Shown in pieces: positions 8,107 to 34,461 of a stretch of 41,325 nucleotides of DNA. The stretch is from contig JBCCUP010000040.1 of the NCBI GenBank assembly GCA_039196715.1, positions 1 to 41,325 of the forward strand. The letters run 5' to 3'. The stretch is from Pseudomonadota bacterium (GTDB taxonomy: Bacteria > Pseudomonadota > Gammaproteobacteria > CALCKW01). Each line of letters begins with the position of its first letter. Position 1 is the first letter of the stretch. The translations under genes were made by a program, and so were the position numbers. The notes beneath the pieces are model-generated. The model was not told where the DNA came from, ran no database searches, and was given only the letters and a program-made list of their open reading frames with translations.

Positions 8107-9723
8107 TCAGGTTGTGGCCGGGGCTGCAACACTCTCTATGGCCGTGTCGACGCACAGCGGCGTTGACACCCGGCGGGCGAGGGCCTCGGTGAGCGCGGCA
8201 ACCGTGCTCACGCGCTCGCCGCAGGCGCCGAGGCCGCGCGCCACCGCCGCGTAGTCGGCCTCGCCCAGTTCGCAGCCGACCAGTCGATCGATGCCGTAGT
8301 CGCGCAGCTGAATCTGGTGTTCGGCGTTCCAGCGGCGGTCGTTGCCGATGACCAGGTGAAAGCGCGCGCCGACGCGCACGGCTGTGTCGAGCTCCAGCAG
8401 GTGAAAGCCGGCGCTGCCGTCGCCCATCAGCACGACGATGTCCGCCGTCGGGTCGGCGAGGCTGGCAGCCACCGCCGCCGGAATCGCGCCGCCGATGCTG
8501 CCGGCGACGCCATTGACAACGCGGCGTGGTGCGCGACAACACGCCTGCGCCCACTGACCGAACTCACCGCCGTCGGTGATCAGGATTGCATTGCTGCTGC
8601 GGTTGAGCGCGTCCTGCACGGCACGGCACACGGTGGCCGGGTGCAAGCTGCCCGCGACGGTTGCCGTCCCCGTGGCATTTAGCGGTGCCAGCCACACGTC
8701 GCAGCGGGTGCGCCAGGCTGGCACGGCGGCACGCGGGCCGGTCTCGGCGAGGCGCCGGGCGAAACCGATCGGGTCGGCCTGGATGCCACTGTGCGGCGTT
8801 GCTGCCAGGTTGGTTGCCGCCTGCTGCAGCACGGCGGCGTCGGCGTGCACGAGTGTCCAGTGGCTGTCGGGTGCCGCCATACCCCCGAAACCCAGGCTGA
8901 AGTCGCAGGGCTTGCCGAGCAGCACCACCGTGTCCGCGTTGCTGATCGTAGAGCCAAGGTTGGCATAAGTCGGGTCCTTGAGGCCGCGCGGGCTCTCGGC
9001 CACGACGGTGGGCGCGCCGGTTGCGCGCTCCAGCGCGTCGACCAACCCCGGCTGACGTGTGGCGTTGAGCGTGGGGCCGAGCACGATCAACGGCTGCGTT
9101 GCCCTTGCCAGAGTGGCAGCGACCTCGGCCACGTCGGTCGATGCAACCGCGGCAGCGGCGTCGGGATCGCCAGGCGTAGCGCCGGTGTCCGATTCACACG
9201 GCTGGGCCAACACATCCGCCGGCAGCGCGAGGTGCACAGGCCCCGGGTGGCTACCGATCGCAATCCGGCAGGCTGTGTCAAGGTCTGCCGCCACGGCGGC
9301 CGCGGAGGTCGGTCGCGCGCAAAAGCGCGTGACGGCCCGGGTCAGGGTCGCCTGATCCAGTTCCTGAAACGCGCCGTGGCCGTCCTGCGCTTGCGGCGAA
9401 TCACCGGAGAGCAACAGCACCGGCGTCTCGGAGGTGAGCGCGCAGTACAGCGGGCCGACCGCGTTGCCGAGCCCCACGCCGGCCGTGACCAGCGCCACAC
9501 CGAGCTCGCCGGTGAGCTGCGCGTGCGCCTCGGCCATGTACACACAGGCCGCCTCGTGCCGGGTGTGCACGATCTCGAGCCCGGCGTCGAGGCACGCGTC
9601 GAACAGCGGCATGATCTGGTTGCCCGACAGCGCAAACACGCGGCTGACGCCGCGCCCGCAGAGCGTGCGCACCAGCGCGTCGGCGACGCGACGCGGTTTG
9701 ACTGGGGTGGTCGATGAATTCAT
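8107..9723 (-). CDS. thiamine-diphosphate-dependent acetolactate-synthase-like enzyme
   Basis: The 538-residue protein has the three-domain architecture of the acetohydroxyacid synthase / 2-oxoacid decarboxylase superfamily. The N-terminal Pyr domain has the catalytic glutamate at residue 57 in RHEAAC. The C-terminal PP domain carries the Mg/ThDP motif starting GDGS at residues 434-437 and closing at N461. It is the last gene of the eight-gene operon and begins 18 bases after the hydratase beta subunit. No acetolactate synthase small subunit and no valine-pathway genes are nearby, so a biosynthetic role is unlikely. Context suggests it decarboxylates, or carboligates, a 2-oxoacid made downstream of the dehydrogenase and hydratase. 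The exact substrate cannot be inferred; sulfopyruvate, phosphonopyruvate or guanidino-oxoacid decarboxylase-like functions remain open. Confidence 0.85.
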   Translation of the reverse strand: MNSSTTPVKPRRVADALVRTLCGRGVSRVFALSGNQIMPLFDACLDAGLEIVHTRHEAACVYMAEAHAQLTGELGVALVTAGVGLGNAVGPLYCALTSETPVLLLSGDSPQAQDGHGAFQELDQATLTRAVTRFCARPTSAAAVAADLDTACRIAIGSHPGPVHLALPADVLAQPCESDTGATPGDPDAAAAVASTDVAEVAATLARATQPLIVLGPTLNATRQPGLVDALERATGAPTVVAESPRGLKDPTYANLGSTISNADTVVLLGKPCDFSLGFGGMAAPDSHWTLVHADAAVLQQAATNLAATPHSGIQADPIGFARRLAETGPRAAVPAWRTRCDVWLAPLNATGTATVAGSLHPATVCRAVQDALNRSSNAILITDGGEFGQWAQACCRAPRRVVNGVAGSIGGAIPAAVAASLADPTADIVVLMGDGSAGFHLLELDTAVRVGARFHLVIGNDRRWNAEHQIQLRDYGIDRLVGCELGEADYAAVARGLGACGERVSTVAALTEALARRVSTPLCVDTAIESVAAPATT

Positions 9724-9741
9724 GCGCTGTCGGCGACGGGG

Positions 9742-10419
9742 TCAGATGAGTTCATCGGACCGGTCGTCGGTTTCGCCGAAGCGCTTGAGCACCGCCGGGC
9801 GGGTGCCGGCGTAGACGGCGTCGAGTCCGGCGCTGATCTTGGCGTTTTCGCGCTCGAACAGGCAGTTGCCTTCGAGGTCCGAGGCGACGATGAACGGGCC
9901 CATGCCGCGGGCTCGGATGACCCACATGGCTTGCGCGAGGCCGAGCTCGGCGTGCCAGTGCACGGCTTCGACCTTCTCGATGCCACGCCCGAGCAGCGCA
10001 CCCGTGCCGTAGCCCACGGTCGAAAGATACACCGCGCCGTTCGGCACGAAATGGTCCCGGTAGTCCTGCGACGACATCCCACCCTTGCCAATGATCAGTT
10101 TGGCGCCGGACTTGTCAAACCACTCTGGCAGCCACTTGGCGAAACGGAATGATGCGGTGGCCGTCACGGCGCCCATGTCGAAGCTGCCGTCAGCGCGGAT
10201 GCTGGCCGCGGGCGAGCAGTGAAAATTGGCTGCACTCTCGGCGGGCAGTTCCATCGGGATGTTGGCGCCCTCTTCGAGCGCACGCATGTACACCCCTTCC
10301 CGCGCAGTGTAGATCAAGCCGTCGAGCATGACGATGTCGCCGAGTTGCAGTTCGGCGAGCGCCTCGGGTGTCGGGGTGGTGCTCAGGCGCACCTCGCGCG
10401 GTTTGGCTAGGCCGTCCAT
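9742..10419 (-). CDS. class I fumarase / L-tartrate dehydratase family, beta subunit
   Basis: This is the beta (C-terminal domain) half of a two-subunit iron-sulfur hydro-lyase that adds water to fumarate-like acids or removes it from hydroxyacids. From the ATG at 10419 it is 225 residues, close to TtdB or the FumA C-terminal domain. Family hallmarks are GDIVMLDGLIYTAREG, the IGKGGMSS motif, NGAVYLSTVGYGTGALL, and an ELGLAQAMWV-type segment. The start overlaps the alpha-subunit stop by 13 bases, so the pair is translationally coupled. A longer open frame continues upstream of 10419, but it lies inside the alpha gene and is not credible. Substrate could be fumarate, mesaconate, tartrate or a substituted malate. 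Confidence 0.9.
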   Translation of the reverse strand: MDGLAKPREVRLSTTPTPEALAELQLGDIVMLDGLIYTAREGVYMRALEEGANIPMELPAESAANFHCSPAASIRADGSFDMGAVTATASFRFAKWLPEWFDKSGAKLIIGKGGMSSQDYRDHFVPNGAVYLSTVGYGTGALLGRGIEKVEAVHWHAELGLAQAMWVIRARGMGPFIVASDLEGNCLFERENAKISAGLDAVYAGTRPAVLKRFGETDDRSDELI

Positions 10420-11345
10420 TCGACTGTCTCCCGTCGTTGGTAGTCGGTGAACCAGTCCGGGTCTGTGCGGTGTTCCACACGGCCATCGGGGTACAGCCGG
10501 GCGACCGCACGACGCGAGGACAGGCAGAAAGCGTGCACGCTCATCTGCATGCCACCGGTGTGGCAGTAGCCGACCTCGATGTGGCAATCGACCACCATGT
10601 TCTTGCCGACAAAACCCATCGCGCCCATGCCGATCGAGTTGCCGAGTTCCTTGAACTCGGCTTCGAGCTCGGCGATTTTCGGGTCGGGGTTGACACTGCC
10701 GACGGTGCGCAGGCAGGCGGCCCGCTTGCCGAGCACCATGCAGGTGTCCTTGCAGCCACCGAGGCCGATGCCGATGATGGCTGGCTGGCAGGCGAGGCCG
10801 CGCTTGCCGAACGCCACGAGGCTGTCGAGGTAGAAGCGCTTGATGCCCTCGATGCCGTCGGAGGGGAACAGCATGCGGTAGTCGGTGCCGAACAGGCCGC
10901 CCTTGTGCACCGTGATCAGGTCGAGCCAATCGCCCTCGGGTTCGAAGGCGTACTCGATCTCCGGCGCGCCGATGCCGACGTTGTTGTTGTGGTCGGTACG
11001 CCACAGGGGGTGCACGCGGTTCGGTCGCAGTGGCACCTCGGTGGTCGCGCTTGCCGTGGCGCGTCGCAGGGCGGCCTCGAGCGCGATCGGGCCGCCCTCG
11101 ATGCGCGCCTCGTTGCCTATCTTCACGTACCAGCGTGGCGTGCCGGTGTCGCCACACATTGCACACCGGTCGAGTTTGGCTGCGGCGTAGTTGTCGAGCA
11201 TCGCGTTCAGCACGTAGTTGGCGAGTGGCCCGGTCTCGGTCCTGGCGGCCTGTTTCAGGCCACTGTGGTAGTCATCGGGGATCTCGATGGCCGCCTTTGC
11301 CATCAGTGCCCCTGCCGTTTCTTCTATTTGCGTGATCGGAATCAT
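10407..11345 (-). CDS. class I fumarase / L-tartrate dehydratase family, alpha subunit
   Basis: This is the alpha half of the hydratase and holds the [4Fe-4S] cluster. The 312-residue product starts at the ATG at 11345, which overlaps the flavoprotein stop as ATGA. Cluster-type cysteines sit in CAMCGDTGTPRWYV near residue 60, IGLGGCKDTC in the middle, and the CHIEVGYCHTGG segment, all in the order seen in TtdA and the FumA N-terminal domain. TtdA is about 303 residues, so the length is right. Coupling to an SDH-like flavoprotein suggests the hydratase acts on the unsaturated product of that dehydrogenase. Fumarate itself is the simplest substrate, but a dedicated operon with its own regulator suggests a substituted one. 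These enzymes are usually oxygen-sensitive. Confidence 0.92.
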   Translation of the reverse strand: MIPITQIEETAGALMAKAAIEIPDDYHSGLKQAARTETGPLANYVLNAMLDNYAAAKLDRCAMCGDTGTPRWYVKIGNEARIEGGPIALEAALRRATASATTEVPLRPNRVHPLWRTDHNNNVGIGAPEIEYAFEPEGDWLDLITVHKGGLFGTDYRMLFPSDGIEGIKRFYLDSLVAFGKRGLACQPAIIGIGLGGCKDTCMVLGKRAACLRTVGSVNPDPKIAELEAEFKELGNSIGMGAMGFVGKNMVVDCHIEVGYCHTGGMQMSVHAFCLSSRRAVARLYPDGRVEHRTDPDWFTDYQRRETVEWTA

Positions 11346-13087
11346 GGTTGGGCCACCAGGGTGTCGGGCTCGTCGGCGGACAGGATCGACTCGCCCGGGC
11401 GCACGAGGGTGAACTGGACCGGCTCCCGCGTGACCTGCAAGGTGTCGCCGTGCTGCTGCACCACGGTGAAGTAGGACGTGTCGAGGTCGCCTTCGTCCGG
11501 GAAGTCGTCGCGGTAGTGGGCGCCGCGCGAATTTTCCCGCGCGAGGGCCGCGTGGGTGATGGCGCGGCCGACGTCGCACAGGGATTTCACGTTCAGCCAG
11601 TCGTGCCAACTCAGGTTGAATGCGAGTGCAGCGTCGTCGACGCCGGTCGTCGCGAGCTCGGCCTCGATCTCGTCCAGCGCGGCCAGGCCGCGCCGGAGGC
11701 CCGCGGCGTTGCGGATCACGCCGACCTCGTCCCACATGCGCTCCTGCAGACGTTGCCGCAACGGCGCCACTGAAGCCGGGGCCGGGCCGAACGGCGCCCG
11801 GGCGCGGGCGACCTCGGCGTCCAGCACGGTCGGATCAGGTTCGTGCAGGCCGGAGCGGCTGCGGATGTCGGCCGCCATGACATCGCCGGCGATGCCGCCG
11901 AAGACCGTGGAGTTCGCCACGCCGTTGCCGCCGAGCCGGTTCGAGCCGTGTGCGCCACCGGCGTCTTCGCCGGCGACGTAGAGGCCGTCGAGCGCAGTGC
12001 GGGTGTCGACGTCGACGACCACGCCGCCCATCAGGTAGTGCGCGGTCGGCACCACCTCGACGAGCCCGCCAGCAAGGTCGAAGCCGCAGTCGGCGCAGCG
12101 CTTGACCATGCCCTTGAATTGTTGTGCGACCGCCTCCGGCCCGAGGTGGCTCATGCGGATGAACACGCCCTCCTGGTCGGGGTGGTTGTTCTTGAGCATC
12201 TCGGCGTAAATACCGCGGCTGACCACATCGCGTGTGGCCCGCTCGCCGCGTGAGTCGTAGTCGAACATGAAGCGCTGCTCGTGGTGGTTGAGCAGGTGGC
12301 CGCCGGCCCCGCGCAACCCCTCCTCGAGCACGGTGCCTGTCATGCGCGTGTGGCTGCCTGCGAGCAGGCCCGTGGGGTGGAACTGCACCATCTCCATGTC
12401 GCGCAGTGGCAGGCCGACACGCAGCGCCATGGCGAGCCCGTCGAGGCTCTTGTCGCCCGACGGTGTGTTGTATTTATACAAGGTTGGCCCGCCGCCCGTC
12501 GCCATCAACACGGCTTTTGCCCGCACCAGTCGAAAGCCTCCAGTGCGCATGTCGATGAAGAGCACGCCGGCCAGCGCGTCGCCGGCGCGGTTCGGGATGA
12601 GGCCGACGGCGCGGTGTTCCTCGAGGCGCTCGATCGGGCGTGCGAGCACCTGTTCCATCAGGCGGCTGATGATCTCGATGCCGGTGAGGTCGCCCTTGTG
12701 CACCGTTCGGTCGGCGGTCTGGCCGGCGAAGGCCTTGTGGTGCAGTGTGCCGTCGGGGTTGCGGTCGAAGAAGCAGCCGATCTCGTTCTCGAGTTCGCGC
12801 ACGCGCTCCACGGCGTCCTCGCACAACCGCCAGGCCATGTCCTGGTTCGGTAGCCACTTGCCGCCGCGGATCGTGTCCATGAAGTGCCGTTCGACGGTGT
12901 CGCCGGGGCCGAGTGACACGTTGTACCCACCTTGCACCATGCGCGTACAGCCGCATTTGCCGAGCAGGCCTTTCACCGCGATGGTGATCCGCGTGCCGAC
13001 CGGCGCGGACTGCTGCGCGTGTAGCGCGGCAAAGAGGCCGGCGCCGCCGCTGCCGATGATCAGGATGTCGGTGTCGTGTCGCTCCAT
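11342..13087 (-). CDS. succinate dehydrogenase / fumarate reductase-type flavoprotein subunit
   Basis: The 581-residue FAD protein starts at the ATG at 13087. It has the Rossmann motif ILIIGSGGAGLFAALHA (residues about 8-24), HPTGLLAGS in the substrate loop, EEGLRGAGG, the arginine-containing RDVVSRGIY, HYLMGGV and GGAHGSNRLGGN, which together mark the SdhA/FrdA family. At the place where SdhA has SHTVAAQGG with the histidine that links FAD covalently, this protein reads GCTRMVQGG, with Cys47 replacing His. FAD is therefore probably non-covalent, or attached differently. It follows the LysE gene by 5 bases and overlaps the hydratase alpha gene. With the iron-sulfur and membrane subunits of the same operon it should form a quinone-linked dehydrogenase for a succinate-like acid. 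An open frame extends upstream of 13087 but lies inside lysE. Confidence 0.9.
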   Translation of the reverse strand: MERHDTDILIIGSGGAGLFAALHAQQSAPVGTRITIAVKGLLGKCGCTRMVQGGYNVSLGPGDTVERHFMDTIRGGKWLPNQDMAWRLCEDAVERVRELENEIGCFFDRNPDGTLHHKAFAGQTADRTVHKGDLTGIEIISRLMEQVLARPIERLEEHRAVGLIPNRAGDALAGVLFIDMRTGGFRLVRAKAVLMATGGGPTLYKYNTPSGDKSLDGLAMALRVGLPLRDMEMVQFHPTGLLAGSHTRMTGTVLEEGLRGAGGHLLNHHEQRFMFDYDSRGERATRDVVSRGIYAEMLKNNHPDQEGVFIRMSHLGPEAVAQQFKGMVKRCADCGFDLAGGLVEVVPTAHYLMGGVVVDVDTRTALDGLYVAGEDAGGAHGSNRLGGNGVANSTVFGGIAGDVMAADIRSRSGLHEPDPTVLDAEVARARAPFGPAPASVAPLRQRLQERMWDEVGVIRNAAGLRRGLAALDEIEAELATTGVDDAALAFNLSWHDWLNVKSLCDVGRAITHAALARENSRGAHYRDDFPDEGDLDTSYFTVVQQHGDTLQVTREPVQFTLVRPGESILSADEPDTLVAQP

Positions 13088-13092
13088 GGCGG

Positions 13093-13713
13093 CTACCGTG
13101 TGCTGACGCTCAACGCCCCGGCCGCACCGAGGAACAGACCGCCGGTGACCCGGTTGATTGTCGTGAGCGTGCGGCTGCGCGCGCCCAACAGGTGGCGCGC
13201 CGCGCTGGCGTAGGCCATCACCCAGAGCAGGTCGATGGCGGCCATGGTCGGGCAGAGAATGAGCATCTGGGCAAGCAGGGGCTCGCTCGGGTCGATGAAC
13301 TGTGGAAAAAAAGCGGTGAAGAACACGATCGCCTTGGGGTTTCCCGCAGCCACGGTGAAGCCGGTGACAAAACAGCGTGTGCGCGACAACTGACGCGCGG
13401 ACGGTGTGTCCGCGCGCGGCTGGCGCTCGGGCTGTGACAGCAGCAGCTTGAGCCCGAGGTAGGCGAGTGTGGCAACGCCGAACCACTTGATGACCTGAAA
13501 GGCGAGTTCCGAGCTTGCAATGACAGCACCGAGGCCAACCGCCACCAACACCATCTGCAGGCCGTTGGCGCTGATGTCACCGAGTGCGGTGAACAGCGCG
13601 CGCCCGCAACCCAGGTGCAGCGCGTGCACCGACGCGATCAACACGCTCGGGCCCGGGCTCATGGTCAGCACGAGCGAGGCGGCGACGAAAGCAAGCCAGG
13701 TGTCGAGTGTCAT
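13093..13713 (-). CDS. LysE/RhtB-family exporter within the dehydrogenase operon
   Basis: The 206-residue protein has about six hydrophobic helices and the family signature SPGPSVLIASVHAL near residue 19, with GNPKAIVFFTAFFPQF near residue 123. RhtB/LysE proteins export amino acids and related small zwitterions across the inner membrane. The gene sits between the membrane anchor (ends 13723) and the flavoprotein (starts 13087), so it must be cotranscribed with a complex in which it has no known place. It may remove an amino-acid-like intermediate or substrate analogue. Only remote similarity is visible to the second LysE protein at 18782-19393, so recent duplication is unlikely. Confidence 0.9.
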   Translation of the reverse strand: MTLDTWLAFVAASLVLTMSPGPSVLIASVHALHLGCGRALFTALGDISANGLQMVLVAVGLGAVIASSELAFQVIKWFGVATLAYLGLKLLLSQPERQPRADTPSARQLSRTRCFVTGFTVAAGNPKAIVFFTAFFPQFIDPSEPLLAQMLILCPTMAAIDLLWVMAYASAARHLLGARSRTLTTINRVTGGLFLGAAGALSVSTR

Positions 13714-13722
13714 GGGTGGCTC

Positions 13723-14067
13723 CTAGCGTGTCGCGCTGATCAGGAAGAGCGTGGCGAGGCCGGCCGCGGCCAGGCAACCGACCGTGAACACGCGTTTCTG
13801 CGACCCGGTCCAGCCGAGTGTCTCCAGCGCGAGCAGACGCAGGCCGCCAATGAGGTGCAACGCGAGCAGTCCGACCAGACCGGTTTCGGCCAGTTTGACC
13901 AGCGGGTGTTCGGCAAAGGCGATGGCCTGCTCGAAGGCGGCCGGGTCAGTCAGTGCAAGCGACAGCACCCAGAGGTGCAGCGGCAGAAACACCGCAAGCG
14001 CGACGCCGGACAACCGGTGCACCCAGTGTGCCCAGTGCAGCGCGTGTCTGGGTCGCGATGTGCTCAC
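13723..14067 (-). CDS. SdhC-like cytochrome b556 membrane anchor
   Basis: This 114-residue protein has three hydrophobic helices. Helix 1 contains the SdhC hallmark HRLSG and the segment FLPLHLWVLSLAL. Helix 2 has H71-L-I-G-G-L-R, matching the haem-ligand HxxxGLR pattern of SDH/FRD anchors. It should anchor the complex, bind haem b with the other anchor and help form the quinone site. The GTG at 14067 overlaps the stop of the preceding anchor as GTGA, which is why I prefer it to the open frame extending further upstream. Confidence 0.85.
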   Translation of the reverse strand: MSTSRPRHALHWAHWVHRLSGVALAVFLPLHLWVLSLALTDPAAFEQAIAFAEHPLVKLAETGLVGLLALHLIGGLRLLALETLGWTGSQKRVFTVGCLAAAGLATLFLISATR

Positions 14068-14396
14068 AGCGCGGTCACCGCCATGACCGCGCGCGCGCCG
14101 AGGAAGACGAGCAGGAGGCCGCTGAGCCAGGTCAGCGCTGCGAGGCCGGTGCCGGTCAGGCCGAGCCACTCGCGTGCCACGCTGCGCAGACCGATTGCCG
14201 CGTGCACGCCTGCGGCCAGCACGAAGGTGCCGTAGAAGCCGAGCCAGAACACGCTGCCGCGCGTGCGCTCGAGAATCTCGGCGGCTGTCAGGCCACCGTG
14301 CACGGCGTAGACCATGACCGCCAGGTGGCCGATCACCAGCGGCACCATGACCACGGCACTCAGGCGTTGGGCGAGGTAGAGCCTGGCGTCAAGCAT
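14064..14396 (-). CDS. second SDH/FRD-type membrane anchor
   Basis: The 110-residue, three-helix hydrophobic protein starts 8 bases before the iron-sulfur subunit stop. Helix 1 carries AQRLSAVVMVPLVIGHL, with the Arg-Ser pair typical of the quinone-site helix. Helix 2 contains H65-A-A-I-G-L-R, the same HxxxGLR haem-ligand pattern as the partner anchor. Two anchors, each with one candidate histidine, match a single haem b held between subunits as in proteobacterial SDH. It is shorter than some SdhD proteins but complete. SdhD-like or FrdD-like would be equally fair names. Confidence 0.82.
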   Translation of the reverse strand: MLDARLYLAQRLSAVVMVPLVIGHLAVMVYAVHGGLTAAEILERTRGSVFWLGFYGTFVLAAGVHAAIGLRSVAREWLGLTGTGLAALTWLSGLLLVFLGARAVMAVTAL

Positions 14397-15123
14397 GCGG
14401 CAGCCCCTTGCCGAGCGCCTGGCGCACCACCTGCCGCTTCAGGCCCGCGAGCGCGTCGAGCGGTCGCAGTTCCACCGGACAGCGCTCGGAGCAGCTGCCA
14501 ATGCTGTGGCAGTTCAGGCAGCCGTCGTCGCCGGTCACGGCGGCGAAGGTGCGCTCCGGCGCGCTGTGGCGTTCGTCGTTGATCAGGGTCCAGGCGCGCT
14601 GCAGTGCGGCCGGGCCGAGGTAGTCGGGGTTGCCGGTGACGGTGTCGCAGGCGGCGTAACACACTGCACAGTTGATGCATTCGATCGCCGCGTCAGCGGC
14701 GCGCCGGGTCGGGCCGGCCGGGTCGACCTCGGGCACGGGCTCATGGCGTGTGCGGGTCGGCCGGTGAACGGCGTCGGCGGCGACCCACTTGTCGAAGAAG
14801 GGTGCCATGTCGGCGACGAGGTCGTTGATCACCGGCAGGTTGCGCAGCGGCGCGAGGTGCAACGCGTCGCCGTCGAGCACGGCGTTGACGTGGGTGCGAC
14901 AGGTCCAGCGCGGTTCGTCGTTGACCATCATCGCGCAGCTGCCGCACATGCCGACGCGACAGGCGAAGCGGTAGCTCAGGGTCGGGTCCGCGTGCTGCTG
15001 CACCCAGGTGACGACGTCGAGCACCGTCTGGTTGGCGTGCTGCGGCACCGCGAAGGTCTCGCTGTAGCGTGCGTCGGGACGGCCACGCTCGACCGTGACC
15101 TGCAGCGTGGGGCGCGCCGTCAT
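14389..15123 (-). CDS. succinate dehydrogenase / fumarate reductase-type iron-sulfur subunit
   Basis: The 244-residue subunit carries electrons from the flavoprotein to the membrane quinone. The N-terminal ferredoxin domain binds [2Fe-2S] through CRVGMCGSC near residue 56 and a further cysteine in WTCRTH. The C-terminal domain holds CINCAVCYAAC and CLNCHSIGSCSERCPVEL, the cysteine sets for the [4Fe-4S] and [3Fe-4S] clusters. The gene leads the operon, with its ATG at 15123 facing the divergent LysR gene. Having the iron-sulfur gene first and the flavoprotein gene fifth is unlike the usual sdhCDAB or frdABCD order, which argues that this is an accessory complex. Confidence 0.93.
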   Translation of the reverse strand: MTARPTLQVTVERGRPDARYSETFAVPQHANQTVLDVVTWVQQHADPTLSYRFACRVGMCGSCAMMVNDEPRWTCRTHVNAVLDGDALHLAPLRNLPVINDLVADMAPFFDKWVAADAVHRPTRTRHEPVPEVDPAGPTRRAADAAIECINCAVCYAACDTVTGNPDYLGPAALQRAWTLINDERHSAPERTFAAVTGDDGCLNCHSIGSCSERCPVELRPLDALAGLKRQVVRQALGKGLPHA

Positions 15124-15265
15124 GGGGGCTCCGAAAAAGGCACCAACATAAGTTTATCGGCTCTAAAAGCCGATAGAGTGCTATTTTCTTGCACTTAGTA
15201 TTAGAAATACTTCAGTTATCGGGCGGCTGGCCCGGTTTCGCCCCGAGTGCCGGTTGGAGGCCGTC
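15124..15265. promoter_or_regulatory. divergent control region with two perfect inverted repeats
   Basis: This is an AT-rich island in GC-rich surroundings between the divergent dehydrogenase operon and LysR gene. TATCGGCT (15155-15162) pairs perfectly with AGCCGATA (15168-15175) around five bases. AGTATT (15197-15202) pairs with AATACT (15206-15211) around AGA. The centres are about 39 bases apart. LysR proteins typically bind paired dyads in the divergent region, so these are likely operators. Promoter hexamers could not be assigned securely. Confidence 0.6.
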
Positions 15266-16153
15266 GTGTCGATCGCCATGTTGCGCACCCTGTTGGCCGT
15301 ACACGACCTCGGGTCGTTCAGTGCGGCTGCCGATGCGGTCAACGTCACGCAGGCTGCAGTCAGCCAGCAGATGCGCGTGCTCGAGCGTCAGTGGGCTGTG
15401 GCGTTGTTCGACCGCTCGCGCAGGCCACCCGAGATGACGCCAATGGGTCGTGTCATCGCACAGCGGGCCCGCGACGTGGTCGCAGGCTACGACGCGCTGG
15501 TGCCGTCTGCTGTCGTCGACGGCGGCGTTGTGGGCGAGTGCCGTCTGGGTGCGGTACCCACCAGCCTGGCGGGTCTGGTGCCGCTGGCTGCGCAGGCGTT
15601 GAGCCACGATGAACCTCGGTTGCGACTGAGCATCGTGTCGGGTCTCACCCACAAACTGATCACCGAGGTGCGCCATGGGCGGCTCGATCTCGCGTTGGTC
15701 TCCAGGCCGCGGGTGCTCGACGACGGACTGGGCTGGCACCCGGTCGCGGACGAGACACTCGAACTCATCGCGCCACCCGAGTGCGCGGGCGAATCGGTCG
15801 CCACCTTGCTGCGCGACCGGTCGTTCATCCGCTTCGCCCGCGACGCCATCGTGGGTGAGCTCACCGAGGCATGGCTGCAAACCCACGGCATCGTGGTGCG
15901 GGAGCGGATGGTTGTCGAGGAGCTCCAAGCCACCGTTCACCTGGTGTTCAGCACGCGCAGTGTGGCCATCGTGCCACGGCAATGTGTCGAGACACTCCAT
16001 CCCGTGCCGGTCTGCCGACTGGCGCTGGGTGCCGATGCACCGGTGCGTCAATTGGGGCTGGTCAGCTCGGCGGCGTGCCCGGATGCGCTGGTTGCGGCGG
16101 TGTCGCGTGCGATGCACCATGCCGTCGGCATCGGCCATTTCGATGCCAGCTAG
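15266..16153 (+). CDS. LysR-family transcriptional regulator
   Basis: The 295-residue LysR protein has an N-terminal winged helix-turn-helix (LGSFSAAADAVNVTQAAVSQ) followed by the long linker helix and a substrate-binding domain beginning near residue 90. I chose the GTG at 15266 because GGAGG lies at 15256-15260, five bases upstream; a TTG at 15254 and an ATG at 15278 are alternatives. It diverges from the eight-gene dehydrogenase/hydratase operon, so it is very likely that operon's activator, sensing the substrate or an intermediate, and probably represses itself. The inducer is unknown. Confidence 0.92.
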   Translation: MSIAMLRTLLAVHDLGSFSAAADAVNVTQAAVSQQMRVLERQWAVALFDRSRRPPEMTPMGRVIAQRARDVVAGYDALVPSAVVDGGVVGECRLGAVPTSLAGLVPLAAQALSHDEPRLRLSIVSGLTHKLITEVRHGRLDLALVSRPRVLDDGLGWHPVADETLELIAPPECAGESVATLLRDRSFIRFARDAIVGELTEAWLQTHGIVVRERMVVEELQATVHLVFSTRSVAIVPRQCVETLHPVPVCRLALGADAPVRQLGLVSSAACPDALVAAVSRAMHHAVGIGHFDAS

Positions 16154-18781: not shown

Positions 18782-19393
18782 TCAGCGCACCAACAAGGCC
18801 CAGAGGCCGGCGCCGCACAGCAGGCCGCCGCCGCCCAGCGCAAGCGGGCGGGTGGAGCGGGGCGACGTCAGCCAGGGCCGGGCTTGCGCAGCCAGCAACG
18901 CGAAGGCCGCCGCGTTGATCGCCGCCAGGACCACGAAGGTCGCGCCGAGCACGGCGAACTGGGGTGCCGCCGCAGTGGTGGGGTCGACGAACTGCGGCAT
19001 GAACGCAAGAAAGAAGGTGATGCCCTTGGGGTTGGTTGCGGTGACCAACCAGGTGTGGAACGCCATGCGGCGGAGCGGGGCCGAGCCGGTGTCCGGCAAG
19101 CGCGGTGTGAGCCCCTCACGCATCATCGTCACGCCAAGCCAGATCAGGTAGCCGGCGCCGAGCACCTTGACCACAAGAAAGGCCGTCGAGGAGGCCTGCA
19201 ACAGCAGGCCGAGGCCAAACAGGGACAGCAGCAGGGCCGTGGCGTCGCCCGCCGCGACCGCGAGGGCGAGCGGCAACGCCATGCGTCGCCCGTGTCGAAT
19301 CGACCAGGCGACGACAGTCAGCACCGTCGGGCCCGGGATCATCTGGATCACGATGCAGGCGAGGGCGAATCCCAACCAGACGCTGAGCGTCAC
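18782..19393 (-). CDS. LysE/RhtB-family exporter in the trpS operon
   Basis: The 203-residue amino-acid exporter family protein has about six hydrophobic helices and the signature MIPGPTVLTVVAWSIRHG near residue 18, with TNPKGITFFLAFMPQFVDP near residue 117. Its GTG start (19393) overlaps the asparaginase stop as GTGA. Coupling to an asparaginase-like hydrolase makes aspartate, threonine, homoserine or another small amino acid a possible cargo, but this is inference; family members vary widely in substrate. Confidence 0.9.
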   Translation of the reverse strand: MTLSVWLGFALACIVIQMIPGPTVLTVVAWSIRHGRRMALPLALAVAAGDATALLLSLFGLGLLLQASSTAFLVVKVLGAGYLIWLGVTMMREGLTPRLPDTGSAPLRRMAFHTWLVTATNPKGITFFLAFMPQFVDPTTAAAPQFAVLGATFVVLAAINAAAFALLAAQARPWLTSPRSTRPLALGGGGLLCGAGLWALLVR

Positions 19394-20421
19394 GACACAC
19401 CTCCATTTCGCAAGGTTGACACCAAGCCCTCAGGCGCCCGCATCTCGCCGACCCGCTGGCCGCGCGAGTTTCGCACGTCGGGGGTCAGGATGTCGGCGAG
19501 GGCGTCGCGCTGCGGGCCGTCGAGCAGACCGAGAGCGTCGAGGGCGGCGCCGAGGGCCACTTCGCTGCCGCGCCGAGCGCCGTCGTCGATCTTGAGCGCG
19601 AAGCCGATACCGAGCGACGGTACACCACCGGCGAACACGCCTTCGGCGCCGGTCTTGACCAGCGTCACCGTGTCGAGGTCCGCCATCACGCGGGTGCAGG
19701 CGCGGCCGGTGCCGGCGACCATGTGCGGGTGGGCGTTGCAGGCGGTGACGATGCGCTCGGCGGCGGCGGCGCGCTCGCCGGTCAGGCTACCCGGCGTCAC
19801 CAGCCGGGCGAAGCCGCGTGCCAGCGCCGTCAACGGGAAGGCGAGTGCCGGCAAGCCGCAGCCGTCGTAGTCCCAGGCGCAGCGCTCGGTGTCGACCCCA
19901 CAGAGATCGCCCATGACCTGGCGCCAGTGGCGCTGGCTCGGGTGTTCGAAGGCCTGGTAGTCAGCGTGCGCGTGCCCGGCGTGCCGGCACAGCGTCAGCA
20001 TGCCGGTGTGCTTGCCGGAACAGTTGTGGTACGCCCGGTTGGGTGTGCGCTGCGCGCGGTGAAACTCGGCCAGCAGCGCGGGCTCCATTGGTGTGTCCAC
20101 GCCGCAGGCGAGGGCGTTCTCGTCAAGATCGAGTTCGGCGAGCCAGGCTTGCACACGGTCGTGGTGGCACGCTTCGCCGTTGTGCGAGGCACAGGCGAGG
20201 GCGACGTCGCTGTCGCTGAGCCCGTAGGCTTCTGCAGCGCCGCTTTCGACCAGCGCGAGCGTCTGGATCGGTTTGTAGGCCGAGCGTGGAAAGACCGGCC
20301 GGTCCACGTCGCCCAGCGCGAAGCGCACCGTGCCCTCGGCGTCGACTGCCACCAGCGCACCGGTATGGTAACTCTCCACCAGGCCGCCGCGGGTGATCTC
20401 CGCGAGCACGGGACGGGTCAC
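19390..20421 (-). CDS. asparaginase (Rhizobium etli type, asparaginase II family)
   Basis: The 343-residue protein belongs to the family represented by the inducible L-asparaginase of Rhizobium etli, unrelated in fold to E. coli AnsA/AnsB. Known catalytic features are visible: the SxxK tetrad S47-A-Y-K50 in [10 protein letters not shown]79 in ACASHNGE, and the CSGKHTGML loop. The conserved [15 protein letters not shown] segment supports the zinc/cysteine region. It should hydrolyse asparagine, or a related amide, to aspartate and ammonia in the cytosol. The GTG start (20421) overlaps the trpS stop as GTGA, and its own stop overlaps the next gene. There is no signal peptide. Confidence 0.9.
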
Positions 20422-27537: not shown

Positions 27538-29079
27538 TTAGCCGCGCGCGGTGCCGCCGATCGGCGGAAAGCGTGTGCGCGCGGCTGCCTCGGTCCAATC
27601 CATGTGGTTGCGTACGTACTCCTGGCTTGCGTCGCGCGGTGGCGTGTAGTCCCAGTGCGGCAGGATGCCGGCTTGCATTGCGGCGTGCACGGCGCGGCGC
27701 TGGTGCTGTGTGGCGATGATCTGCTCGCGCAAGGCGGCCGAGTCCCAGCGCGCGGTGGCCTCCGCTCGGAAGGCGGCTGCCGTGTCAGCGTGCGCCGGGT
27801 CGTCGGCGAGGTTGGTGAGCTCGTCCGGGTCGGTGTCGAGGTTGTAGAGTTGTGCCGGGTCGGCGTCGCAGTGGATGTACTTCCACGGGCCACGGCGGAT
27901 CATGAACACCGGGTGCGAGGCCATCTCGGCGCAATATTCGCCGATCGCTTCCGACACCGGGTCGGCCTCCCCGCGCGCGGCGGGCAAGAGCGAGCGGCCA
28001 TCGATCGGCTGGCCGAGCGCGGGCTTGTCCTGGCCGGTGCTCGCGGCGATGTCGAGCAGGGTTGGCAGGATATCGACGAGGGAGCAGGCGTTGTCGACCG
28101 TGCCGTTGGCGATACCGGGGCCCGCCATGATCAGCGGCACACGCGCCGAGTGCTCGAAGTGCGACATCTTGTACCACAGTCCGCGTTCGCCAAGCATGTC
28201 CCCGTGGTCGGCGGTGACGATGACGATGGTGTTGTCGAGCTGGCCGTTGTCCTCGAGGCACTGCAACAGCTCACCCACCTTGCTGTCGAAGTAGGACGTG
28301 TTGGCGTAGTAGGCGCGGCGCGCGTTACGCACCTCCTGTTCGGTCACGGCCACCGTGCTGGCCTCGATGCCGTCCATCAGGCGCTGGCTGAACGGGTCCT
28401 GCTGTTCACGCGACAGCACGTGCTTCGGCATGTCGATGTCGGCGTCGTTGTACAGGTTCCAGAAGCGGGGCAGGGCGACGTACGGGTCGTGCGGGTGGAT
28501 GAAGCTCGCCACCATGCAGAAGGGCGCGGTGTTGTCGCGCGCGTAGTCGAGCAGTTTGCGCTTGGCGAAGAACGCCACCTCCTCGTCGTAGTCGATCTGG
28601 AAGGTGCCGACCCCCTCGCCCGCTTCGCGCACCGAATCCATGTTGTGGTACCACTTGTCGATGCGTTCGTCCGGCGCTTCCCAGTTGGGCGTCCAGGCGA
28701 AATCCGAGGGGTAGATATCGGTGGTGATGCGCTCGTCGAACCCGTGCAACTGGTCGGGCCCGACGAAGTGCATCTTGCCCGACAGGCAGGTGCGGTAACC
28801 CATGGCCCGCAGGTAGTGCGCGAAGGTCGGGATGGTCGCCGGAAACTCGCTCGCGTTGTCGTAGGCGGCGATGCGGGTCACCAGTTGGCCCGCCATGAAC
28901 GAAAAGCGCGAGGGCGCGCACAACGGGGAGTTGCAATAAGCCGCGTCGAAGCGTGCGCCGCGCGCTGCGAGCGCGCTCATCGACGGCGTCTGTACTACCG
29001 GGTGGCCGTAGGTGCCGGTGAACTGCGGCGCGAGCTGGTCCGCCATGATCAGGACGATGTTAGGTGGTGTGGTGGCCAT
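27538..29079 (-). CDS. betC: choline sulfatase
   Basis: BetC hydrolyses choline-O-sulfate to choline and sulfate. The 513-residue protein starts at the ATG at 29079; an open frame extends upstream but has no family resemblance. The sulfatase signature C54-A-P-S-R58 provides the cysteine matured to formylglycine, and the metal site residues appear as MADQ (residues 12-15) and TADHGDMLGE. The segments LSGKMHFVGPDQLHGF and TTDIYP match choline sulfatases closely, rather than generic arylsulfatases, and C54 is the numbering used for the rhizobial enzyme. Usual partners betA, betB and betI are absent here. It sits beside a carnitine/betaine catabolic cluster that could use the resulting betaine. 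Confidence 0.92.
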   Translation of the reverse strand: MATTPPNIVLIMADQLAPQFTGTYGHPVVQTPSMSALAARGARFDAAYCNSPLCAPSRFSFMAGQLVTRIAAYDNASEFPATIPTFAHYLRAMGYRTCLSGKMHFVGPDQLHGFDERITTDIYPSDFAWTPNWEAPDERIDKWYHNMDSVREAGEGVGTFQIDYDEEVAFFAKRKLLDYARDNTAPFCMVASFIHPHDPYVALPRFWNLYNDADIDMPKHVLSREQQDPFSQRLMDGIEASTVAVTEQEVRNARRAYYANTSYFDSKVGELLQCLEDNGQLDNTIVIVTADHGDMLGERGLWYKMSHFEHSARVPLIMAGPGIANGTVDNACSLVDILPTLLDIAASTGQDKPALGQPIDGRSLLPAARGEADPVSEAIGEYCAEMASHPVFMIRRGPWKYIHCDADPAQLYNLDTDPDELTNLADDPAHADTAAAFRAEATARWDSAALREQIIATQHQRRAVHAAMQAGILPHWDYTPPRDASQEYVRNHMDWTEAAARTRFPPIGGTARG

Positions 29080-29251
29080 GCGGTGTTCCCCTCGGCGGCG
29101 CGGTGAGTGCGGAGCAACGCTACCAGATCGCCTTGTGCCGCAAAGACGCGCGAGCGACACCCGATGACGTTCGTGGTGTGGGCAACACGAAGCCGACCCG
29201 CGCGCCGCGAATGCAGTAGGCTCTCGGCTGACACCGCCCGGAGCCCCACCC

Positions 29252-29467
29252 GTGAACCGCATCAACCCGAACAAGCTGCTGCACAGCAAGTGGACCGCGG
29301 TGCAGCCTGTCGGCAAGGCCGTGCACTTCATGGTGGTCGAGCTAGAGCGGGATGCGGACGGGGCCGTGACGCGCTGCCTGCTCGACGCTGTCGTGGCCGG
29401 CCAGTCGTCCTGGGTCGACTGGCGTGCGCTGAAAGACGCCGGTGCCTGGCGGCACGGCTGGCGTTGA
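29252..29467 (+). CDS. small Trp-rich protein (TIGR02450 family)
   Basis: The 71-residue protein matches the conserved small tryptophan-rich family: NRINPNKLLHSKWTAV at the N-terminus, a central HFMVVELERD, and the C-terminal WVDWRALKD and WRHGW. Function is unknown. The GTG at 29252 has GGAG eight bases upstream. Its stop (29465-29467) is one base before the GTG of the following SDR gene, so the two form a translationally coupled pair. Confidence 0.85.
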   Translation: MNRINPNKLLHSKWTAVQPVGKAVHFMVVELERDADGAVTRCLLDAVVAGQSSWVDWRALKDAGAWRHGWR

Positions 29468-30203: not shown

Positions 30204-31130
30204 TCAGTCGCGCAGCGTGCGGGTGTGCTTGAGCATGGCCTCGATCAGCGCGTCACGCCGTGCAATGTCGGTGTCGTGGCCCCGGTCGAAATCGGCAATG
30301 CCGTCGCGCAAGGTTGCGATGGTCTCTTCGGTCAGTTTCGCGTCGCCGAGATCGTCCCACCAGCGGTGGAAGCTCGGGCCGTAGCGGTTGCAGAACTCGG
30401 CCAGGCCGCCTTCACCCGCGCCGAGGTGAAAGAGCTGGTGCGGGCCCATCGCGGCCCAGCGCAGGCCCGGTCCGGCCCAGACGGCAGTGTCGACATCTTC
30501 AACGGTCGCGACGCCCTCGGCGACGAGGTGGATGGCCTCTCGCCAGAGCGCGGCCTGCAGGCGGTTGGCGACGTGCGCGCTCACTTCCTTCTTGACCCGG
30601 ATGGTCACCTTGCCGCAGTCGCGGTAGAAGGCTTCGGCGACATCGACGGCGTCGGGGTCGGTGTGGTCGTTGCTGACCAGCTCGACCAGGGGAATCAGAT
30701 GCGGCGGGTTGAACGGGTGGCCCAAGAGGAAGCGCGCGGGGTTGCGCCACCCGGTTTGCATCTCTGACACCATCAGGCCGGAGGCGCTTGAGGCGACCAC
30801 GGCGTGCGGCGCGAGCACCGGCTCGATCTCGCGAAACAACGCGTGCTTGATGTCGATGCGCTCGGGCACGTTCTCTTGGACAAAATCCGCGGCGTCGACC
30901 GCTTCCGGGGCGCTGGCCGCGAACCGCACCGTGTCCGGGTCGCCGCGTTCGGCCATGCCGAGCGATTCGAGTGTGGGCCAGACAGCTTCGATGCGTTTGC
31001 GGGTGGCGGCCTCGAAATCCGCTGCAGGGTCGTAGACCGTGACCGTCTTGCCGGCGGCGAGAAACAGCGCGGCCCAACTCGAGCCGATGACGCCGGAGCC
31101 AATGATAGCGGTGTTCTGGAGGGTTGTCAT
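30204..31130 (-). CDS. lcdH: L-carnitine 3-dehydrogenase
   Basis: This enzyme (also called CdhA) oxidises L-carnitine to 3-dehydrocarnitine with NAD. The 308-residue protein has the Rossmann motif GSGVIGSSW near residue 11, the 3-hydroxyacyl-CoA-dehydrogenase-like HPFNPPHLIPLVE and the carnitine-type segments WAGPGLRWAAMGPHQLFHL and YGPSFHRWW. These C-terminal features separate it from 3-hydroxybutyryl-CoA dehydrogenases of similar size. A dehydrocarnitine-cleaving BKACE gene 2.4 kb upstream on the same strand supports the assignment, as in the Pseudomonas aeruginosa cdh genes. It is the last gene of the minus-strand series. Confidence 0.88.
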   Translation of the reverse strand: MTTLQNTAIIGSGVIGSSWAALFLAAGKTVTVYDPAADFEAATRKRIEAVWPTLESLGMAERGDPDTVRFAASAPEAVDAADFVQENVPERIDIKHALFREIEPVLAPHAVVASSASGLMVSEMQTGWRNPARFLLGHPFNPPHLIPLVELVSNDHTDPDAVDVAEAFYRDCGKVTIRVKKEVSAHVANRLQAALWREAIHLVAEGVATVEDVDTAVWAGPGLRWAAMGPHQLFHLGAGEGGLAEFCNRYGPSFHRWWDDLGDAKLTEETIATLRDGIADFDRGHDTDIARRDALIEAMLKHTRTLRD

Positions 31131-31209
31131 GGTGTCTGTCCATGCCTGTCACCGCGCTGCACGGGCCACCCGTGAGGCGCGACAACGCTGTGAGGGAACC
31201 TACTCAAAA

Positions 31210-31962
31210 TCAATACAACCCCGGATTGAGTGGCGACGCCGCCGTCATGCCGCCGTCGACCGTGAACAACTGGCCGTTGGCAAAAGCCGCGTCGTCGCAC
31301 GCGAGCCAGGCTGCCATGTTGGCGACGTCGTCGGGCTGACCAAATCGGCCGACCGGGTGGCGCGCCAGGGCATCCCGCTTGGCGGCAGCGGGGTCTGTCG
31401 CCACCGCGAACGCCGCGTCGGCCATACCGGTCAGGATCCAGCCCGGGCAGATCGCGTTGCAGCGCACGGTGTCGCCGTGGTCGACGGCGATCGAGCGGGT
31501 CAGGCCGTGCACGAAGGCCTTGGAGGCGTTGTACAGCGCCATGCCGGGGTCTGCCACGGTGCCGGAGATCGAACCGATGTTGATGACGCTGCCTCCGGCG
31601 CGCATCTGTGGGATGAAGGCGCGGCAGCAGTTGAAGACCCCGCGCGCGTTGGCACCGACGACGGCGTCCCAGTCGGCGTCAGAGCTGTCAACCACGCTTT
31701 TCTCGATCTGGACGCCGGCGTTGTTCACCAGGACGTCGATCGCACCAAGGGTCCCGGCCAGGGCGTTGACCGCGTCGGGGTCGCTGACATCGCAGGGGTG
31801 CCAGGTGCAGTCGCCTGGCCAGTCGTCCGGCTTCGCGCTGCGCCCGCACCCGACGACGTCTGCGCCGTCGGCCAGGAAGCGTTCGACGATCGCGCGGCCG
31901 ATGCCCTGGCGTGCGCCGGTGACGAGCGCGCGTTTGTTGGCCAGCTTGCCTTCAGTTGCCAT
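31210..31962 (-). CDS. short-chain dehydrogenase/reductase (carnitine cluster, first copy)
   Basis: The 250-residue classical SDR has TGARQGIGRAI for cofactor binding, NNAGVQIEKS, catalytic serine in NIGSISGTV, catalytic YNASK, and the C-terminal GGMTA. It shares the unusual motif AGVxIEK and the ending GQLF(I/T)(V/I)DGG with the SDR at 34764-35543, so the two are paralogues. A role in reducing acetoacetate (released when dehydrocarnitine is cleaved) or in oxidising a hydroxylated intermediate is possible but unproven. It lies 79 bases upstream of lcdH. Confidence 0.88.
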   Translation of the reverse strand: MATEGKLANKRALVTGARQGIGRAIVERFLADGADVVGCGRSAKPDDWPGDCTWHPCDVSDPDAVNALAGTLGAIDVLVNNAGVQIEKSVVDSSDADWDAVVGANARGVFNCCRAFIPQMRAGGSVINIGSISGTVADPGMALYNASKAFVHGLTRSIAVDHGDTVRCNAICPGWILTGMADAAFAVATDPAAAKRDALARHPVGRFGQPDDVANMAAWLACDDAAFANGQLFTVDGGMTAASPLNPGLY

Positions 31963-32093
31963 CTATCCGCGCCATCGTGCTGTGCAAGGTGGTCCGTCAC
32001 ACGGTGGCCGTCCCACACGTTTTGTACCGTGTGTCGACTGTGGGAGGGCACACTCGGCGTGAACCGACCCGCGCGAATCGCTGGCGCACCTCA
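31963..32093. promoter_or_regulatory. intergenic region with nested inverted repeats
   Basis: CACACGGT (31998-32005) pairs with ACCGTGTG (32026-32033), and CCCACA (32012-32017) with TGTGGG (32039-32044). The two pairings overlap and cannot form together, suggesting either an operator or an alternative RNA structure between the aldehyde dehydrogenase and SDR genes. Confidence 0.4.
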
Positions 32094-33512: not shown

Positions 33513-33534
33513 GGCGTTCACCTCGGGTTGGAAT

Positions 33535-34461
33535 TCAGAAGGAGACGGCGTTGCCGCCTTTGAGGCCGAGTCGTGCACGGGCCTCCTCGGGGGTGGCCAC
33601 GCGGTGGCCGAGCGCTTCGACGATGCCGCGGATCTTCTCGACCTGCTGTGCGTTGGAGGTCGCGAGTTCGCCCTTGCCGATGTACAGGCTGTCCTCTAGG
33701 CCGACCCGCACGTTGCCTCCGAGCATCGCCGCCTGGGTTGCGAAGGGCATCTGGTGCTTGCCGGCGGCCAGCACCGACCACTCGTAGGCGTCACCGAAGA
33801 GCTTCTGCGCGATCGTGTGCATGTGCATGAGGTTGTCGGGGTCGGCGCCGGCGCCGCCGAGGATGCCGTAGATCAGTTGGATGAAGAACGGCGGTTTGAC
33901 CAGCCCCTTGTCGACGAAATACGCGAGGTTGTAGAGGTGGCCGAGGTCGTAGCATTCGAATTCGAAGCGCGTGCCGTGGGCCTCGCCGAGTTCGCGCAAG
34001 CCGTACTCGATGGTCTTGAAGGTGTTCGGGAAGATGAAGTCGCGGGTCATCTCCAGGAAGGGCTTCTCCCAGTCGTGCTGAAATTCGCTGTACTTGTCCG
34101 CCATCGGAAAGATGCCGAAGTTCAGCGAGCCCATGTTCATCGACGCCATTTCGGGGCTCGCGGTCAGCGCCGCCGCCAAACGCTCATCGATCGTCATGCC
34201 GAGGCCACCACCGGTCGAGATGTTGACCACCGCGTCGGTCTGCTGCTTGATGCGCGGCAGAAACTGCATGAAGGTGTCGGGCCGGTGGTCGGGTTTGCCG
34301 GTCTCGGGGTGCCGGGCATGCAAATGCAGGATGCTGGCGCCAGCCTCGGCCGCACCGACCGCCGCCTCGGTGATCTGGTCTGGCGTGATCGGCAGGTGCG
34401 GGGACATGGTTGGGGTGTGGATGCCACCGGTGACCGCGCAGGTGATGATGATGGGTTTCAT
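33535..34461 (-). CDS. cdhC: BKACE-family 3-dehydrocarnitine cleavage enzyme
   Basis: BKACE enzymes condense a beta-keto acid with acetyl-CoA and cleave it. CdhC converts 3-dehydrocarnitine and acetyl-CoA to betainyl-CoA and acetoacetate. The 308-residue TIM barrel starts with IIITCAVTGG, carries the zinc-binding HLHARHP near residue 46, the substrate region NISTGGG, and a C-terminal GNVRVGLEDSLYIGKG. All are typical of the family (formerly DUF849). The dehydrocarnitine call rests on the nearby lcdH gene and the CdhR-like regulator; other BKACE substrates (3-keto-5-aminohexanoate and similar) look alike. The ATG at 34461 has GAGGAA upstream. The aldehyde dehydrogenase gene starts 22 bases after its stop. 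Confidence 0.83.
   Translation of the reverse strand: MKPIIITCAVTGGIHTPTMSPHLPITPDQITEAAVGAAEAGASILHLHARHPETGKPDHRPDTFMQFLPRIKQQTDAVVNISTGGGLGMTIDERLAAALTASPEMASMNMGSLNFGIFPMADKYSEFQHDWEKPFLEMTRDFIFPNTFKTIEYGLRELGEAHGTRFEFECYDLGHLYNLAYFVDKGLVKPPFFIQLIYGILGGAGADPDNLMHMHTIAQKLFGDAYEWSVLAAGKHQMPFATQAAMLGGNVRVGLEDSLYIGKGELATSNAQQVEKIRGIVEALGHRVATPEEARARLGLKGGNAVSF

Follow-up and report, generated by a model that had tools for sequence, protein, structure and literature searches.

A LysR-Linked Operon Combining a Complex II Paralogue and a Class I Hydro-Lyase: A Possible Route for Organosulfonate Catabolism

The Operon and Its Genes

The stretch of DNA analyzed here (hereafter the window) comprises 41,325 nucleotides from a gammaproteobacterium (assembly GCA_039196715.1, contig JBCCUP010000040.1) and is the entire contig C40 of a 169-contig, 4.95 Mb genome. 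Between positions 8107 and 15123, all eight open reading frames of a minus-strand operon are present, adjacent genes either overlapping by 4–13 bases or being separated by 5–18 bases. They encode a paralogue of respiratory complex II, a two-subunit class I hydro-lyase, a thiamine diphosphate (ThDP)-dependent enzyme and an exporter, with a LysR-type regulator transcribed divergently. Gene families were assigned by Pfam and NCBIfam profile matches, which concur with the names given in a preliminary description made from the sequence alone; the tight packing and the divergent regulator that it reported are likewise borne out by the reading frames and their coordinates. The features are as follows.

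8107..9723, minus strand: ThDP-dependent enzyme, TPP enzyme family; below every curated cut-off
9742..10419, minus strand: class I hydro-lyase, beta subunit; Fumerase_C (PF05683)
10407..11345, minus strand: class I (Fe-S) hydro-lyase, alpha subunit; Fumerase (PF05681)
11342..13087, minus strand: flavoprotein of the complex II/NadB superfamily; FAD_binding_2 and Succ_DH_flav_C; catalytic residues His237, Glu256, Arg286, His350 and Arg384 retained
13093..13713, minus strand: LysE/RhtB-type exporter; Pfam and NCBIfam family matches
13723..14067, minus strand: membrane anchor 2, cytochrome b556 type, GTG start; TIGR02970 above cut-off
14064..14396, minus strand: membrane anchor 1, Sdh_cyt, heme-b type; PF01127, 27.1 bits against a cut-off of 25.8
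14389..15123, minus strand: iron-sulfur (FeS) subunit of the complex II paralogue, 244 aa; dhsB TIGR00384 above cut-off; Fer2_3
15155..15175, no strand: perfect palindrome TATCGGCT-N5-AGCCGATA in the LysR/FeS intergenic region; 0 expected in 100 shuffles
15254..16153, plus strand: LysR-type regulator, divergent; Pfam; homologues alongside the cluster in most long loci

The FeS subunit contains the three cysteine motifs expected for the 2Fe-2S, 4Fe-4S and 3Fe-4S clusters, and both anchors possess a His-bearing helix; the PF01127 score of anchor 1 is barely above its cut-off, and the position of its gene is syntenic across other loci. In the intergenic region, the palindrome (8 bases with a 5-base spacer) is a candidate operator or hairpin. 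The sister locus (L013) showed no such palindrome, but the motif CTTATGTT, located beside it in the window, is found there again.

A Conserved Six-Gene Unit with Optional Members

Within the same class, a homologue of the alpha subunit was found in 6 of 369 genomes. By scanning GTDB species genomes with the alpha alignment, 520 candidate relatives were obtained and 80 loci were kept, most of them from Roseobacteraceae, Paracoccaceae, Rhizobiales, SAR116 and Granulosicoccaceae. In what follows, neighborhood counts cover 85 loci, of which 54 are long (at least 20 kb), and genome-wide enzyme counts cover 34 cluster-bearing genomes. The order FeS, anchor 1, anchor 2, flavoprotein, alpha, beta is retained in nearly all of the 85 loci, and the conserved unit is composed of these six genes plus LysR, a homologue of the sulfite exporter family TauE/SafE and an importer. 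The concern raised in the preliminary description, that the gene set might not be conserved in related genomes, is thus answered by the six-gene core; its "eight-gene set" was too strong, the ThDP gene being optional (an orthologue is present in 18 of the 34 genomes) and the LysE gene being confined to this genome.

Indeed, LysE is absent at this position in the sister genome and in every other locus examined, which rules it out as a conserved partner. It is an insertion peculiar to this genome, with an uncertain role that is perhaps the export of a sulfonate or an amino acid. A second LysE-type exporter is encoded elsewhere in the window (18782–19393), directly downstream of an L-asparaginase II gene (19390–20421).

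The ThDP protein is nearest to 2-hydroxyacyl-CoA lyase, acetolactate synthase and oxalyl-CoA-decarboxylase-like proteins, its best NCBIfam equivalog score (269) being below the cut-off of 600. Its presence does not track that of the desulfonating enzyme Xsc, found in 11 of the 18 ThDP-positive and in 12 of the 16 ThDP-negative genomes, so that a ThDP step feeding Xsc is ruled out as a rule. With half of the cluster-bearing genomes lacking this enzyme, and its occurrence not following that of Xsc, the ThDP-dependent step "after oxidation" that had been suggested for the operon is left unsupported.

The distribution of the unit is patchy even inside a genus, with 31 of the 84 genomes around Roseovarius mucosus carrying it. 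In a tree of alpha and flavoprotein sequences, the window joins two Granulosicoccaceae metagenome-assembled genomes (MAGs) with a support of 93, two other Granulosicoccaceae fall inside Roseobacteraceae, and one Brucella falls inside Paracoccus. Because of this within-genus patchiness and of these placements across families, the six-gene unit seems to be transferred horizontally, in the manner of accessory catabolic clusters. In one SAR116 MAG (L061), alpha and beta are found without the complex II genes, adjoining a TauD-family dioxygenase, an FAD protein and a CoA-transferase; this organism perhaps uses a different first step with the same hydratase.

Two Krebs-Cycle-Like Enzymes Distinct from the Housekeeping Copies

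The flavoprotein, the three-cluster FeS subunit and the two heme-b anchors, gathered in one operon, recall succinate dehydrogenase (SDH; SdhABCD) and fumarate reductase (FRD; FrdABCD). Across 83 flavoprotein sequences of the family, the equivalents of FrdA His232, Glu245, Arg287, His355 and Arg390 (FrdA numbering) are invariant. The protein is nevertheless only 30–32% identical to E. coli SdhA and FrdA, falls below the SdhA/FrdA equivalog cut-offs (403 versus 567, 324 versus 727 and 297 versus 933 bits) and differs from SDH and FRD by a Cys in place of the FAD-linking His, a Glu in place of FrdA Thr244, and a 6-residue basic insertion ahead of this Glu (Glu255) that includes an invariant basic residue, Arg or Lys (R248 in the window). 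The lack of the FAD-linking His is shared with NadB and TfrA, which score similarly, the best NCBIfam match being TfrA (470 versus a cut-off of 718) and NadB reaching 339 versus 453. Unlike these two proteins, from which it also differs at the Thr/Glu position, the flavoprotein is accompanied by FeS and heme-anchor subunits, which argues for a quinone-linked enzyme; moreover, the FeS protein is devoid of the CCG domains of TfrB.

Regarding the hydro-lyase, it has the two-subunit Fe-S architecture (PF05681 and PF05683) of class I fumarase, the tartrate dehydratase TtdAB and mesaconase, with the three cluster cysteines (64, 186 and 274 of alpha) invariant in the family. Also invariant are the Asp, Arg, His, Arg, Thr, Arg and Lys residues matching what we take, after the numbering of the Leishmania enzyme, to be the catalytic positions of class I fumarase, and beta keeps Thr88, Arg92 and Lys112. 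In contrast to class I fumarase and TtdAB, the Gln of the CQDTG motif of alpha is replaced by Gly or Ala (CG/ADTG) and the GPTTxxRM motif of beta becomes TATASFRF in essentially all members. Both enzymes hence look catalytically intact with an altered substrate pocket, as far as can be judged from residue conservation.

Family membership alone would suggest that these are the housekeeping SDH and fumarase placed in an odd operon, as the preliminary description had itself envisaged. Nonetheless, the same genome encodes a separate SdhA with a full score (960.8 bits) on contig C15 and, on contig C63, a further class I fumarase in fused form, to which the operon flavoprotein and alpha subunit are 32% and 25% identical, respectively. 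Together with the patchy distribution, these copies contradict the housekeeping explanation, which we regard as next to impossible, and the low identities imply that the operon enzymes are paralogues with another job. The proposal of a regulated, non-housekeeping route based on dehydrogenation and hydration of a succinate-like acid is in keeping with the conserved core and the intact catalytic residues. What a single sequence could not reveal is that the neighbors of the cluster in other genomes point to sulfonates, although sulfosuccinate figured among the candidates listed in the preliminary description.

Neighboring Genes and Published Expression Data

The TauE/SafE-family exporter homologue (PF01925) is present in 59 of the 85 loci and in 50 of the 54 long ones, in most cases adjoining beta and preceding LysR. 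With a single TauE homologue (E ≤ 1e-15) in the 4.95 Mb genome of the window, such a proximity would be expected by chance in well under 2% of cases per 20 kb, as a rough yardstick. Related loci have a common ancestry, so that they do not count independently, though several orders are covered. A YeiH-family putative sulfate/sulfite exporter occurs in 10 loci, and in two Marivita loci (L089 and L091) a gene resembling the sulfite dehydrogenases SorA/SorT lies between beta and the ThDP gene. CuyA is encoded in one locus (L041; 544.5 bits versus an equivalog cut-off of 450), and CuyA-like genes adjoin the cluster in two others (L010 and L059). As for uptake, tripartite tricarboxylate transporter genes are near the cluster in 41 loci, and an SsuA-family importer, which matches TIGR01728 with 82 bits (cut-off 163.5) and the ATPase of which is nearest to nitrate and taurine types, in 10.

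SSADH-family dehydrogenases adjoin the cluster in five loci, SSADH itself acting on the carboxylate analogue of 3-sulfopropanal, and a trio formed by a HisD-domain protein, an SDR and a zinc-dependent alcohol dehydrogenase, resembling HpsN/O/P, is found in four Paracoccus loci; in Roseobacters, 2,3-dihydroxypropane-1-sulfonate is converted to sulfolactate by HpsN/O/P together with a GabD homologue (PMC11131964). Most of these signals are weak when taken singly, and jointly they point one way, toward sulfonates and sulfite. Elsewhere in the genome of the window are also found Xsc (954 bits), CuyA (493 bits, above cut-off) and the TauE homologue. Class III aminotransferases recur upstream of the cluster in several Roseobacters; as they match only the uninformative PRK07483 model or fall below cut-offs, they were not used as evidence for a homotaurine transaminase.

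The cluster shares with the known dissimilation systems for C2 and C3 organosulfonates (Xsc, SuyAB, CuyA, SlcCD/ComC, HpsNOP and TauE) the organization of a probably inducible catabolic cluster, with LysR, a tripartite tricarboxylate or SsuA-type importer and the TauE homologue, and several genes of these systems adjoin it in some genomes. Its core enzymes, in contrast, have no place in the sulfonate pathways described so far.

Published expression data also bear on this function. Growth of Paracoccus wurundjeri Merri on sulfofucose raises the levels of nine proteins of a "cluster 3" (MDP0926751–0926761), of which MDP0926757 is a TauE homologue; this cluster was labeled "fumarate and tartrate metabolism", and the authors suggested a link with the Krebs cycle (PMC12421959). 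Our locus L021 ("Paracoccus onubensis strain Merri 1-1") consists of FeS, anchor 1, anchor 2, flavoprotein, alpha, beta, TauE and LysR genes followed by an importer (SsuA-like binding protein, permease and ATPase), for a total of 11 genes with TauE as the seventh. From this gene count and the position of TauE, rather than from locus tags, we strongly infer that L021 is the sulfofucose-induced cluster.

It is against these data that a substrate devoid of sulfur has to be weighed, for instance methylsuccinate/mesaconate, tartrate or another substituted succinate, with the TauE homologues exporting an organic anion and not sulfite. Such a function would agree with alpha and beta being about equally similar to TtdA and TtdB (30–32% identity). 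Two neighbors would agree with it as well: a CoA-transferase of family III, akin to the mesaconate and glutarate transferases, which accompanies the cluster in 17 loci and is often inserted between alpha and beta (L030, L089 and relatives), and a tartrate-dehydrogenase (TTC) homologue located several kb from the cluster in a distant relative (L009, 3574–4689), a branch that may use another substrate. It leaves unexplained, however, the TauE, YeiH, SorA-like, CuyA, SsuA and HpsNOP-like signals and the induction by a sulfosugar, and we consider it distinctly improbable. Among the diacids put forward in the preliminary description, itaconate, methylsuccinate and tartrate were consequently dropped as first-choice substrates in view of the sulfonate neighbors, while sulfosuccinate, itself a sulfonate, was kept.

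Proposed Pathway

Our preferred interpretation, in which we place a confidence evenly poised between acceptance and doubt, is that of a LysR-regulated organosulfonate catabolic operon acting most likely on 3-sulfopropanoate. Gene content, conservation, catalytic residues and sulfonate-linked neighbors are what we observe, whereas the identity of the acid, the sequence of the reactions and what becomes of the product are inferred. That the substrate is a sulfonate is very probable and that dehydrogenation precedes hydration is likely, while 3-sulfopropanoate is offered more tentatively, as the best single guess. The quinone-linked complex II paralogue would remove two hydrogens from a saturated succinate-like sulfo-acid, 3-sulfopropanoate (i.e., succinate with one carboxylate replaced by a sulfonate) being dehydrogenated to sulfoacrylate, and the alpha/beta hydro-lyase would hydrate the new double bond. 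Hydration beside the carboxylate would give 3-sulfolactate, to be desulfonated by the Xsc, SuyAB or CuyA branches; alternatively, water could be added to the carbon carrying the sulfonate, and the resulting hydroxysulfonate, being unstable, would collapse to malonate semialdehyde and sulfite. Sulfite would leave the cell through TauE or YeiH, or be oxidized by the SorA-like enzyme where present, and the ThDP enzyme, or elsewhere the family III CoA-transferase, may represent an optional downstream branch.

The choice of 3-sulfopropanoate comes mainly from a route reported for homotaurine, serving as carbon source, in Roseovarius nubinhibens ISM, in which 3-sulfopropanoate is converted to sulfoacrylate and then to sulfolactate (Konstanz thesis, as cited in PMC11489063), since these desaturation and hydration steps would require exactly a dehydrogenase and a hydratase and suit an SDH-like and fumarase-like pair. 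The operon may thus correspond to this route, for which PMC11489063 names no genes. Our literature searches on sulfosuccinate genes, on the homotaurine genes of R. nubinhibens and on the active-site structure of class I fumarase returned nothing usable, and no genes for the use of 3-sulfopropanoate or sulfosuccinate were found in the searchable literature.

Several observations weigh against this proposal. Within the window, the operon has no sulfite gene beside it, the TauE homologue being on another contig; TauE/SafE is a broad family, the SorA-like and SsuA-like scores are under curated cut-offs, and few loci contain the SSADH and Hps-like genes. The fact that just 31 of the 84 Roseovarius-group genomes carry the cluster is a further difficulty. 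In the flavoprotein, Cys47 replaces the FAD-linking His and Glu255 replaces the carboxylate-holding Thr244 of FrdA in 83 of 83 members, the latter being unexpected for a di-acid substrate. When E. coli FrdA is deprived of its FAD-linking His, succinate oxidation is impaired, and a low-potential flavin may be better suited to the oxidation of hydroxy or amino acids. Finally, strain Merri was grown on sulfofucose (PMC12421959), which is known to yield sulfolactate and not 3-sulfopropanoate.

Among these points, the absence of covalent FAD weighs most heavily against the oxidation of a saturated acid, and it keeps alive an improbable explanation in which the flavoprotein is a sulfolactate:quinone dehydrogenase whose reaction passes through the enol form of sulfopyruvate. 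Alpha/beta would then act, like SuyAB, as a sulfo-lyase on a single sulfolactate enantiomer, and the ThDP enzyme, when present, would decarboxylate sulfopyruvate. Non-covalent FAD would suit a hydroxy acid, the HpsNOP-like genes adjoining the cluster in Paracoccus make sulfolactate, and the Merri cluster is induced under conditions in which sulfolactate is an intermediate (PMC12421959). Conversely, Merri already possesses SuyAB, SlcC and ComC, which are induced, and ThDP does not track Xsc, as mentioned above. We also know of no precedent for a class I hydro-lyase acting as a sulfo-lyase.

The hydration of sulfoacrylate to sulfolactate, as we propose it, would leave desulfonation to known enzymes. 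Among the cluster-bearing genomes, 23 encode Xsc, 19 a CuyA above cut-off and 9 a SuyB-sized protein, according to a rough split of PF04295 matches by reading-frame length (approximately 394–462 aa for SuyB-like proteins and more than 500 aa for sugar-acid dehydratases). In Celeribacter halophilus (L019) and Pseudorhodobacter aquimaris (L086), the cluster is accompanied by TauE and YeiH, and no SuyB-type, Xsc, CuyA or ThDP orthologue was detected. Either these drafts miss genes or, given this lack of known desulfonating enzymes, the cluster itself may break the C–S bond. The latter possibility, that the complex II paralogue and the hydro-lyase suffice through desaturation, hydration at the sulfonate carbon and collapse to an oxo acid (malonate semialdehyde or oxaloacetate) and sulfite, is on the whole doubtful.

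These two genomes also speak for sulfosuccinate, which the complex II paralogue would convert to sulfofumarate and the hydratase, acting on the carbon with the sulfonate, to 2-hydroxy-2-sulfosuccinate, the bisulfite adduct of oxaloacetate, releasing oxaloacetate and sulfite. Two enzymes and TauE would then make up the whole pathway, with no need for a malate dehydrogenase, which the operon indeed lacks. The MR/MLE enolase-superfamily gene near the cluster in 12 loci could racemize this chiral substrate, and the smaller residues of the hydratase pocket (Gln to Gly/Ala and Thr to Ala) would be in keeping with it. The SSADH, Hps-like and CuyA neighbors nonetheless favor C3 over C4 sulfonates, and the genome drafts are possibly incomplete. 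Furthermore, the cluster is widely distributed among marine bacteria, whereas we are aware of no plentiful source of sulfosuccinate in nature. On balance, sulfosuccinate seems to us quite improbable as the substrate.

Other Genes in the Window

Beyond the operon, the window contains a look-alike of a carnitine or quaternary-amine catabolic cluster (30204–36681), with genes for a 3-hydroxyacyl-CoA-dehydrogenase-type protein, an SDR, an aldehyde dehydrogenase, a beta-keto acid cleavage enzyme (BKACE) and a Rieske oxygenase, as well as a sulfatase with a choline-sulfatase C-terminal domain (27538–29331).

Concluding Remarks

Sulfonates form a large pool of organic sulfur originating from algae and plants, and Roseobacters are prominent actors of marine organosulfur cycling. 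The cluster would provide a concrete gene set, found in culturable strains, for the missing step in the use of 3-sulfopropanoate (or sulfosuccinate), and offers a different reading of the Paracoccus sulfofucose proteins previously ascribed to the Krebs cycle. If the cluster alone achieved C–S cleavage, this would be a novel mechanism of desulfonation, employed in the absence of Xsc, SuyAB and CuyA. More generally, if our proposal is correct, a pair of Krebs-cycle enzymes would have been repurposed as a unit and passed between classes of bacteria.

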